Assembly: GCF_008124835.1 (NCBI RefSeq)
Contig: NZ_VNHW01000014.1
Span: 1-64,000 of the forward strand
Origin: Blastococcus xanthinilyticus
Lineage (GTDB): Bacteria; Actinomycetota; Actinomycetes; Mycobacteriales; Geodermatophilaceae
Direction: 5' to 3'
Length of the DNA: 64,000 nucleotides
Position 1 is the first letter of the stretch. The number at the start of each line of letters is the position of its first letter. The translations under genes and the position numbers were made by a program. A model generated the notes under the pieces. That model was not told the origin of the DNA. It was given only the letters and a program-made list of their open reading frames with translations, and ran no database searches. Below, in pieces: positions 14,351 to 16,820 of the stretch.

Positions 14351-14365
14351 CCCGCATCGGCCCCC

Positions 14366-14449
14366 GTCCTGGCTCACCTGCGGTGGTCCTGGCTCACTGT
14401 CGATGGTGAGCCAGGACCCCTGATGATCAGGTCACCTGATCGTCAGGGG
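14366..14449. repeat. Interspersed palindromic repeat, copy A
   Basis: GTCCTGGCTCAC occurs at 14366-14377 and 14386-14397, and inverted at 14406-14417; the second and third form a perfect 12-bp stem (13 with the flanking pair) around an 8-nt loop. Eleven nt later comes AGGTCACCTGATC (14429-14441), itself part of a 33-bp near-perfect palindrome at 14417-14449. The same hairpin, 11-nt gap and 13-mer recur at 47369-47424. It sits between convergent genes and may double as a terminator. Confidence 0.8.
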
Positions 14450-14456
14450 TGGCTAC

Positions 14457-16001
14457 TCAGTCGCGGAAGACCTCGATGTCGGCGCCCATCTCGACCAGCC
14501 GCTCGTAGAGCTGCTCGTAGCCGCGGGCGATGATGTCGACGTTGCGCAGCACCGAGGTGCCCTTCGCGGCGAGCATCGCCAGCAGGATGCAGACGGCCGG
14601 CCGCAGTGCGGGCGGGCAGGTGACCTCGGCGCTGGACCAGCGGGTCGGCCCGGTGACCAGGACCCGGTGCGGGTCCAGCAGCCGGACGTCGGCGTTCAGG
14701 CGGGTCAGGTCGGAGAGGTGGATCGCCCGGTTGTCGTAGACCCAGTCGTGGATCAGCGTCGATCCGGACGCCTGGGCGGCGATCACGGCGAAGAACGGCA
14801 GGTTGTCGATGTTCAGGCCCGGGAACGGCATCGGGTGCACCTTGTCGATGGGCGCGTGCAGCTCCGAGGGGTGGATCGTGATGTCGGCCAGCCGGGTGTG
14901 CCCGTTGTCGGCCAGGTAGTCCGGCGAGAGCTCGTAGCGCAGCCCCATCTCCGCGAGCACCGCCAGCTCCACCTCGAGGAACTCCACCGGCGCGCGGGTC
15001 ACGGTCAGCTCCGAGCCGGTGACGATGCCGGCGGTGAGCAGGCTCATCGCCTCCACCGGGTCCTCGCTGATCGTGTAGTCGACGTCGGCGTCGAGCACCG
15101 CGCGGCCGCGGACCACGAGGGTGGTCGACCCCAGGCCCTCGACGTCGACCCCGAGCAGCTGCAGGTACAGGCAGAGGTCCTGCACCATGTAGTTGGAGCT
15201 GGCGTTGCGGATGGTGGTCGTGCCCTCCGTGCGGGCCGCCGCCAGCAGCGCGTTCTCGGTGACGGTGTCCCCGCGCTCGGTGAGCACGATGGTGCGGTCG
15301 GCGGCCGCCGGGCCCGCCACCGTCGCCTGGTACTCCCCGGCGTGCGCCTCGACCGCCAGGCCGAACGGGCGCAGGGCGATCATGTGCGGCTGCACGGTGC
15401 GGGTGCCGAGGTCGCAGCCGCCGGCGTAGGGGAGCTTGAACTCGGTGGCCCGGTGCAGCAGCGGGCCCAGGAACATGATGATGCTGCGGGTGCGCCGGGC
15501 GGCGTCGGCGTCGATGCCGCCCAGGTCGAGGTGCTCGGGGACGAGCAGGGTGAGGTCGTGCCCGTGCTCGTCCCAGGTCGCCGAGACGCCGATGGAGCGC
15601 AGCACGTCGAGGATCCGCTCCACCTCGACGATCCGGGACACGTTGCGCAGCGTCGTGCGGCCCCGGTTGAGCAGCGCCGCGCACAGCAGCGCGACCGCGG
15701 CGTTCTTCGACGACTTCACCGCCACCCGGCCGCGCAGCGGCCGGCCGCCGGTGACCCGCAGGTGCGCGGGGCCGGCCGGGCCGAGGCTGATCAGCTCGCT
15801 GTCCAGCGCGGCCGACAGCCGGCCGAGGAACTCCAGGGTGAGGTTCTGGCTGCCCTGCTCGATGCGGGCGACGGCGCTCTGGCTGGTGTTCAGCCGCTCG
15901 GCGAGCTGCTGCTGGGTGAGCCCGCGGTGCCGGCGGGCGTCACGGACCAGCGCCCCGATCCGGTGCATGGCGGCGTCGGTGGGCGGGTCGAGGAGGGTCA
16001 C
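14457..16001 (-). CDS. HTH-MurA fusion (Xre-type HTH plus UDP-GlcNAc enolpyruvyl transferase)
   Basis: 514 residues. Residues about 14-68 form an Xre-type helix-turn-helix (LVRDARRHRGLTQQQLAERL, then TSQSAVARIEQG). From about residue 80 comes a full MurA-like domain. MurA adds enolpyruvate to UDP-GlcNAc, the first step of peptidoglycan synthesis. The active-site residues look intact: Lys in KSSKNAAV, the loop Cys in AGGCDLGTR, Asp in NIDNLPFF, Arg in DNRAIHL, and Arg in ALRPAVCIL. The GTG at 16001 is supported by a TAACGT -10 box 6 nt upstream. Whether this is the housekeeping MurA, a regulated paralogue or a sensor-repressor cannot be told from one window; the HTH-MurA arrangement is known in actinobacteria but its function is not. 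Confidence 0.88.
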   Translation of the reverse strand: MTLLDPPTDAAMHRIGALVRDARRHRGLTQQQLAERLNTSQSAVARIEQGSQNLTLEFLGRLSAALDSELISLGPAGPAHLRVTGGRPLRGRVAVKSSKNAAVALLCAALLNRGRTTLRNVSRIVEVERILDVLRSIGVSATWDEHGHDLTLLVPEHLDLGGIDADAARRTRSIIMFLGPLLHRATEFKLPYAGGCDLGTRTVQPHMIALRPFGLAVEAHAGEYQATVAGPAAADRTIVLTERGDTVTENALLAAARTEGTTTIRNASSNYMVQDLCLYLQLLGVDVEGLGSTTLVVRGRAVLDADVDYTISEDPVEAMSLLTAGIVTGSELTVTRAPVEFLEVELAVLAEMGLRYELSPDYLADNGHTRLADITIHPSELHAPIDKVHPMPFPGLNIDNLPFFAVIAAQASGSTLIHDWVYDNRAIHLSDLTRLNADVRLLDPHRVLVTGPTRWSSAEVTCPPALRPAVCILLAMLAAKGTSVLRNVDIIARGYEQLYERLVEMGADIEVFRD

Positions 16002-16007
16002 CGGGCC

Positions 16008-16028
16008 ACGTTATCTCGCATGTGAGAT
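16008..16028 (-). promoter_or_regulatory. Promoter and candidate autoregulatory operator of the HTH-MurA gene
   Basis: On the complementary strand TAACGT (16008-16013) is a -10 box ending 6 nt before the GTG at 16001. Abutting it, 16013-16028 reads ATCTCGCATGTGAGAT, a 16-bp palindrome with only one central pair mismatched. Size and position suit a dimeric Xre-family repressor, and the gene it controls encodes one. It also lies upstream of the divergent gene at 16074. Confidence 0.5.
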
Positions 16029-16073
16029 CAGGCCGGCAGGGCATGCGGGGCCGCCGCGCGCCAGACTGCACGG

Positions 16074-16820
16074 GTGGACGTGGTGGTCACCGGCGGAACC
16101 GGCCGGCTCGGACGTGTGCTGGTCCCGCACCTGGGGGAGGAGGGCCACCGGGTGCGGCAGATGTCCCGCCGCGGCGCCGGGCCCGGTGGGGTGCGGGGCG
16201 ATCTGGCCACCGGCCGGGACCTCCGCCCGGCGCTGGCCGGCGCGGAGGTGGTCGTGCACGCGGCCAGCGACCCGCGCGGCGACCCGTGGGAGGTCGACGT
16301 CGCCGGCACCCGCCGGCTGGTGGAGGCCGTCGACCGCTCCCGGCTCACCCACCTCGTGCACGTCTCCATCGTCGGGGTCGACCGCGTCCCGCTGGGCTAC
16401 TACCGGGCCAAGTACGCCGCCGAGCAGGTGCTGCTGGCCTCCGGGCTGCCGGTCACCCTGGTGCGGATCACCCAGTTCCACGGCTTCGTCGACGAGCTGC
16501 TCGGCACGGCCCGCCGCGGGCGGCTGCTGCCGGTGCCCGTCGGGTGGCGGGTGCGGCCCGTGGACGTCGCCGACGCCGCCGGGCACCTCGCCGGCCGGGT
16601 GACGGCCGGGCCGACCGGCGGGGTGGTGGAGTTCAGCGGCCCTGAGGAGCTCTCCGTGGTGGATCTCGCCCGGTCGTGGGCGGCGGTGCGCGCCCCGGCG
16701 GCGCGGGTCGTGCCCACCCCCGTGCCGGGGCGGCTCGGCGCGGCGCTGCGCGAGGGCGGCGCCCTGCCCCGCCGCGGCGACCACGGCCGGCGCACGTGGG
16801 CGGAGCACCTGCGCGGCTGA
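16074..16820 (+). CDS. NAD(P)-binding atypical SDR (NmrA-like)
   Basis: A 248-residue NAD(P)-binding protein: VVTGGTGRLGRVLVPHL is the nucleotide loop, followed by the VVHAASDP strand and YYRAKYAAEQVLLASGLPVT. This is the atypical SDR/NmrA-like branch, whose members act as oxidoreductases or redox sensors. No substrate can be proposed. The GTG at 16074 has CAGACT (16062-16067) 6 nt upstream, a leaderless-type -10. It is divergent from the HTH-MurA gene and shares its short promoter region. Confidence 0.8.
   Translation: MDVVVTGGTGRLGRVLVPHLGEEGHRVRQMSRRGAGPGGVRGDLATGRDLRPALAGAEVVVHAASDPRGDPWEVDVAGTRRLVEAVDRSRLTHLVHVSIVGVDRVPLGYYRAKYAAEQVLLASGLPVTLVRITQFHGFVDELLGTARRGRLLPVPVGWRVRPVDVADAAGHLAGRVTAGPTGGVVEFSGPEELSVVDLARSWAAVRAPAARVVPTPVPGRLGAALREGGALPRRGDHGRRTWAEHLRG

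Follow-up and report, generated by a model that had tools for sequence, protein, structure and literature searches.

The HTH-MurA gene and its promoter

The window, i.e. the whole stretch of 64,000 nucleotides of Blastococcus xanthinilyticus that was analysed, belongs to a genome of 4.6 Mb and carries on its minus strand a gene that starts with GTG and encodes a protein of 514 amino acids, called here HTH-MurA (Table 1). The range 14457-16028 given in the original prediction ends in a non-coding tail (16002-16028), which is the promoter. An Xre-type HTH joined to a MurA-like enzyme had been proposed, and Pfam profiles recovered both parts above their cut-offs, HTH_3 on residues 19-70 (48.9 bits, cut-off 23) and EPSP_synthase (PF00275) on residues 83-502 (159.7 bits, cut-off 22.8). 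The protein also passed the cut-off of the NCBIfam MurA subfamily NF006873 (314.2 versus 297 bits); its score with the murA equivalog TIGR01072 was below the cut-off (302.6 versus 392.7 bits), and it is therefore not filed as a murA equivalog. The Streptomyces orthologue is murA2 (SCO5998, sven5810/vnz_28735), with 68-70% protein identity. This orthology was drawn from the relative S. coelicoflavus, among others; its locus (L102) lies next to aconitase and contains a near-identical copy of the SigB promoter sequence given for SCO5998 in the available part of PMC8346170.

Table 1. Positions of the genes, domains and promoter elements at the HTH-MurA locus of the window.
Feature	Position	Strand	Basis
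HTH-MurA gene, Streptomyces murA2 orthologue	14457..16001	-	ORF, Pfam/NCBIfam profiles, homologue searches
MurA-type enolpyruvyl transferase domain; Lys, loop Cys, Asp and Arg residues kept	14496..15755	-	Pfam, alignment
XRE/HTH_3 domain, residues 19-70, recognition helix TSQSAVARIEQG	15792..15947	-	Pfam; coordinates from residues
-10-like hexamer TAACGT overlapping the palindrome end, putative leaderless layout	16008..16013	-	Sequence; 135 orthologous promoters
Candidate operator, 18-bp frame (16-bp palindrome 16013-16028)	16012..16029		Sequence and orthologue comparison
Divergent NAD(P)-binding gene	16074..16820	+	Pfam; locus comparison

Upstream of the gene lies the palindrome ATCTCGCATGTGAGAT (16013-16028), self-complementary at 14 of its 16 positions. 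It was the sole match in the window to ATCTCRCATGYGAGAT with up to two mismatches (0.03 expected) and is one mismatch away from ATCTCANNNNTGAGAT. Read on the minus strand, the promoter sequence is GATCTCACATGCGAGA-TAACGT-GGCCCG-GTG, and the palindrome touches the -10 box as had been described, its one base in common being the first base of TAACGT (16008-16013). Since the GTG start codon is only 6 nt downstream of this hexamer, the HTH-MurA transcript is probably leaderless. At the other end of the gene, the interval that separates it from the SDR gene (14360-14445) contains inverted and direct repeats of TCCTGGCTCACC, possibly a terminator or a repeat element, which occupy the same place in loci L007 and L010.

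The candidate operator among HTH-MurA orthologues

The original prediction was made to depend on conservation of the palindrome upstream of HTH-MurA orthologues. We scored upstream regions at the 14 arm positions of TATCTCA-N4-TGAGATA with a threshold of 11/14 and found the palindrome at 11/14 or better upstream of the HTH in 174 of the 176 assessable non-redundant orthologues (L075 begins at the edge of its contig and was left out). With such conservation the palindrome is real beyond doubt. In the 1.05 Mb surrounding 80 orthologues, 127 sites reached at least 11/14, namely 79 operators (one per locus, except L075), 44 copies on the acnA side and 4 others, of which 2 are within the HTH-MurA gene and 2 are 64 bp upstream of a Cellulomonas operator; this count and the conservation together rule out a chance feature. 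Because some families have TAACTC or GAGTTA half-sites, we took TAWCTCA-N4-TGAGWTA as the working consensus. The operator was found in ten named actinobacterial (NCBI) families and in coded families. A shorter upstream interval gave the site in 135 of 138 cases, and the miss in L032 is due to a repetitive N-terminal extension, the site being present. In this Geodermatophilaceae protein (G043), tandem AHEASAAAP-like units lie between the start codon and the HTH. The second operator-like palindromes of Cellulomonas, exactly 64 bp upstream of the first in L084 (5837, 5901) and L086 (5836, 5900), possibly serve cooperative binding.

The promoter layout is conserved as well. A TANNNT -10 sequence starts at palindrome position 17 in 132 of 135 orthologous promoters, and the start codon is 6-8 nt past the -10 in 128 of them; over these 135 sequences, no column of the 45 bp further upstream exceeded 0.2 bits. 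Five of the 174 sites are just at the 11/14 threshold (L085, L088, L128, L175 and L184). One operator half is visibly damaged in L085 (Serinibacter) and L128 (Stackebrandtia) beside an intact HTH, which counts against the reading of the palindrome as HTH-MurA's own operator. By eye, the symmetry of the operator showed no pattern with the variant residue of the recognition helix (Ala, Asn or His).

The original prediction also held that the divergent NAD-binding gene might share the control. Among Geodermatophilaceae, 13 of 15 loci have the NAD-binding gene near HTH-MurA, and no locus searched from other families has it. A divergent aconitase gene, identified by a Pfam match in L102, lies beside HTH-MurA in 44 of 48 Streptomycetaceae loci, the query for this count being the ORF that lies opposite acnA and tracks it; Cellulomonadaceae and other loci have neither neighbour. 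The operator persists while the neighbours change, and shared control is thus not supported as a general feature. The 44 acnA-side copies, all in Streptomycetaceae, are a second perfect 18-bp palindrome, TATCTCGATGTCGAGATA, located upstream of the divergent acnA (e.g. L102:5662-5679) and staying with acnA where that gene is far from murA2 (L116, L125). This palindrome is probably the site of TamR, since a passage of the review PMC5487221 ties TamR to aconitase as its repressor. Its arms are very similar to those of the murA2 operator, and HTH-MurA may cross-bind there.

We then considered the proteins and genomes that lack the recognition helix, the operator or the gene. Among 177 unique proteins, a TSQSA-like recognition helix is absent only in two members of genus g22, L050 and L176 (a third sequence without a visible helix, L075, is cut off by the contig end). 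The helix region reads MTEQDIEQIE and MTGTDIEQIE in these two proteins, as against forms such as TSQSAVNRIE, and they are exactly the two orthologues without an operator. As this joint loss is confined to one genus, it probably reflects a single event. Autoregulation would be dispensable in g22, since the enzyme was kept when operator and HTH were lost. In these genomes, G742 (L176) and G250 (L050/L180), where the helix is decayed and the operator gone, HTH-MurA is the sole MurA found; the G250 copy has a frame break. The two genomes have 2 and 5 one-mismatch sites elsewhere.

None of 25 standalone murA genes, taken with estimated starts, had the operator in its upstream region (best score 9/14). 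No ATCTCA-N4-[TC]GAGAT was found in seven genomes of the same genus without the HTH-MurA gene; three of the seven have one single-mismatch site each, the mismatch affecting another arm letter. On its own the bare pattern is thus weak, since the window's genome has a mismatched site of its own and single-mismatch sites occur in gene-less genomes. One perfect ATCTCANNNNTGAGAT elsewhere was present in 3 of 11 gene-less genomes of families f2 and f3, a control that speaks against the own-operator reading. A one-mismatch search of nine fusion-bearing genomes gave 1-4 sites each, and only the murA2 site was common to all. Among the 12 other sites, blastn joined a single pair, from two Streptomyces (G134/G304, 87% over 1190 bp), which is orthologous and within a reading frame 98% identical; the ten remaining sites had no blastn match to one another. 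The pattern ATCTCN6GAGAT occurs at three sites elsewhere in the genome of the window, one within clpX and one within a MarR-type gene (identities from reading the ORFs). Of 20 genomes scanned with a looser pattern, 19 contained 1-6 sites each, and the one without any, G680, has an operator with a variant half. Given these scattered sites in genomes searched with loose patterns, HTH-MurA may have weak further targets beyond its own promoter. The proposal that the protein binds its own promoter is nonetheless supported by an operator that is present in ten named families and whose loss in one genus coincides with that of the recognition helix; such binding is very probable.

Distribution and enzyme domain of HTH-MurA

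To judge from homologue searches, HTH-MurA with its matching promoter site is found in many soil actinobacteria. Of 112 Geodermatophilaceae genomes, 93 contain the fusion in whole or in part, and the other 19 (six of them less than 90% complete) gave only matches at the level of standalone MurA or none. In the window's genus, 16 of 23 genomes have it and 7 lack it. It was present in 113 of 394 genomes of the class sample and in 16 of 396 genomes spread over the phylum, the window's genome included; none of these 396 had a fusion outside the class. Beyond the phylum, a plasmid collection and a contig scan were covered, among the matches listed. MurA-like proteins encoded on plasmids of Rhizobium, Caballeronia and Streptomyces were looked at and gave no lead. 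Named fusion loci come from Streptomycetaceae, Geodermatophilaceae, Cellulomonadaceae, Promicromonosporaceae, Nocardioidaceae, Microbacteriaceae, Dermabacteraceae, Rarobacteraceae, Beutenbergiaceae and Glycomycetaceae, with one more from Nonomuraea; loci were kept best-first, so Streptomyces and the window's family are over-represented. The locus search was seeded with the peptides ERGDTVTE and RNAS[SP]NYM, and ORFs were picked by ERGDTVTE; in 40 genes obtained from a profile search without peptide filter, each ORF had ERGDTVTE or a similar motif. A few orthologues are broken by an internal stop or frame break (L023 in G031, G017, and L179 in G770).

The search for a second murA in the window's genome gave a standalone gene (G000 C11, L002:1501-2718) in which Asp replaces the loop Cys (GGDAIGSR). 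The same Asp is at the position of Cys115 in 19 of 25 standalone MurA loci (L002, L213-L229 and L259), and Cys in L230-L235. Other lineages appear to have the fusion alone. With the Streptomyces-type family f5 left out, 73 genomes of the class sample carry the fusion, and in 40 of them no MurA-family protein other than HTH-MurA was found, the criterion being the fusion as only match of the murA model at E <= 1e-30. Exactly two EPSP-family genes were present in 39 of the 73, and these 39 plus G250 make up the 40; the second gene was AroA in 9/9 genomes checked. The sole-MurA genomes fall in f8 (33 of 36), f7 (5/5) and f111 (2/2). Family f8 is Nocardioidaceae (it includes Mumia quercus), so that HTH-MurA is the sole MurA found in most of those sampled; three other f8 genomes and, for comparison, the window's genome have a standalone MurA besides the fusion. 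In the other 33 genomes there were at least three EPSP-family matches, presumably with a standalone MurA among them, which was confirmed in some. The murB gene was present in 39/39 sole-MurA genomes checked, in 38 above its cut-off. Because the fusion is the sole MurA-family protein in 40 genomes and murB accompanies it in all those checked, HTH-MurA most likely performs the MurA step there, on evidence that is strong though indirect; its enzyme domain would be first of all a working MurA, and not only the sensor that had been proposed.

The active site had been described as apparently intact, and for the PEP and catalytic side this stands. HTH-MurA of the window has Lys22, Asn23, Arg91, Cys115, Arg120, Asp305, Arg331, Arg371 and Arg397 (E. 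coli numbering); the first five are invariant in 177/177 fusion sequences and the last four in every fusion sequence covering them. It does not stand for several UDP-GlcNAc-side positions and His394. Indeed, positions 121, 160, 162-164, 188, 232, 369 and His394 are replaced in all fusion sequences covering them, the invariance of positions 160-166 being partly by construction since ERGDTVTE was a search seed, and D123 is retained in only 2 of 177. We take D123, K160, S162, V163, E188 and D369 to have a UDP-GlcNAc-side role. The roles of Cys115 and His394 in MurA are treated in the available part of PMC9346081. With several of these positions and His394 replaced, the acceptor of HTH-MurA could differ from that of canonical MurA. 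In a tree of 39 proteins, the 19 fusions formed a single clade (100/100) whose stem measures 3.1 changes per column; Asp-type MurA and Streptomyces MurA1 fall outside it. The tree program warned that long branches meet. As judged from sequence, the fusion is a separate actinobacterial class of MurA.

Probable autoregulation by HTH-MurA and known systems

The reading that we favour, with a probability of about 0.8, is that HTH-MurA is a working MurA of this separate class that doubles as the regulator of its own transcription via a private operator. A dimer would bind the single private palindrome through the N-terminal XRE domain. The operator sits over the -10 and the spacer, as fits a repressor, and we thus infer autorepression. 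Since the operator fills the spacer of a presumably leaderless promoter and touches the -10, bound HTH-MurA should exclude RNA polymerase. Rising HTH-MurA would lower its own transcription, and the supply of MurA would be held at a set point. By conjecture, occupancy of the enzyme by substrate, product or UDP-MurNAc could alter DNA binding, as in a trigger enzyme.

Two versions of this autoregulation have to be weighed. Plain negative autoregulation, with an ordinary MurA domain whose catalytic state is without effect on DNA binding, has nearly an even chance of being right, as it satisfies all the comparative evidence without a ligand effect and, the operator looking private, the circuit need only count protein. 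Nothing speaks directly against it, but the joining of a regulator and a metabolic enzyme in one protein hints at coupling, and E. coli MurA binds UDP-MurNAc, a regulatory ligand (available part of PMC12077105). An autorepressor that responds to ligands, whose operator binding would change when UDP-GlcNAc, PEP or the feedback ligand UDP-MurNAc occupies the active site, is a tentative proposal to which we give two chances in five.

It is unlikely that HTH-MurA instead activates its promoter in a spacer-centred, MerR-like mode. The promoters have no conserved -35 box, and there is no information at -35 over the 135 of them, which speaks for such a mode; however, a good -35 is missing from many actinobacterial promoters anyway, the XRE activators known to us bind upstream of the -35, and here the operator abuts the -10. 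We are equally doubtful that HTH-MurA, instead of being a UDP-GlcNAc transferase, serves mainly as a regulator that senses metabolites or transfers enolpyruvyl to another acceptor. The replaced positions, the long stem of the clade and the missed murA equivalog cut-off would all suit this possibility. The catalytic-side residues are, however, all invariant where covered, and the 40 genomes with no other MurA-family protein, in which murB was found whenever checked, would otherwise miss the first step of peptidoglycan synthesis. Least probable by some way is that another conserved regulator binds the palindrome and the HTH acts elsewhere or not at all: BldM-WhiI footprints do lie on Streptomyces murA2 (available part of PMC4125116), but the palindrome accompanies the HTH-MurA gene across many families and neighbourhoods, is absent at the 25 standalone murA genes and was lost where the recognition helix was lost.

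If HTH-MurA is such a self-regulating MurA, what it controls is the first committed enzyme of peptidoglycan synthesis, and together with its private, ancient operator it would form a direct feedback loop at the gene level at the entry of this pathway. The reach would extend to Streptomyces, where murA2 is a developmental target, and to most sampled Nocardioidaceae, where HTH-MurA is the sole MurA found. Were DNA binding responsive to ligands, wall-precursor levels would set MurA synthesis without an intermediate regulator in sole-MurA lineages such as Nocardioidaceae, and fosfomycin and other Cys-reactive compounds would selectively hit the regulator where the other MurA has Asp. The changed substrate side of a protein that must still carry out the MurA step is a clear structural question.

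In the literature available in part, Streptomyces murA2 is one of two UDP-GlcNAc transferase genes and is controlled from outside: BldM-WhiI footprints mark it as a developmental target (PMC4125116), SCO5998 has the SigB promoter mentioned above and a DmdR1 site is predicted at the MurA2 gene (PMC12161575); its overexpression has also been described (PMC11005364). An HTH domain or own operator of murA2 is not mentioned in the available parts of PMC12161575, PMC4125116, PMC11005364, PMC8346170, PMC5487221, PMC12077105 and PMC9346081. For XRE motifs, PMC12565409 gave only reference-list matches in the part available, and that of PMC4255298 contained nothing relevant. Among the matches listed, in which subscription journals are thinly covered, no title or start of an abstract reports a MurA with a DNA-binding domain. 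To judge from these matches, what is new here is the HTH in murA2 orthologues, the conserved operator of their own and the sole-MurA status in some lineages.

Canonical MurA (TIGR01072, E. coli) is of the same family as HTH-MurA and has the same catalytic Lys, Cys, Asp and Arg at 28% identity; it differs in having no HTH, and its Pro121, Lys160, Ser162, Val163, Gly164, Glu188, Arg232, Asp369 and His394 are all replaced in the fusion clade. The Asp-type MurA of the window's genome is a paralogue that presumably performs the same step, but it has a loop Asp in place of Cys, a loop of the fosfomycin-insensitive type, and neither HTH nor operator. In design, HTH-MurA resembles the trigger enzymes PutA, NadR and BirA, which also combine an enzyme and a DNA-binding domain in one protein and for which ligand control of DNA binding is established; to our knowledge, none of them is a cell-wall enzyme. 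The controls of MurA that we found in print, PrkA/ReoM in Firmicutes (PMC7286690) and CwlM and inhibition by UDP-MurNAc (PMC12077105), act on the protein according to the parts available, whereas the loop proposed for HTH-MurA would act on the gene.
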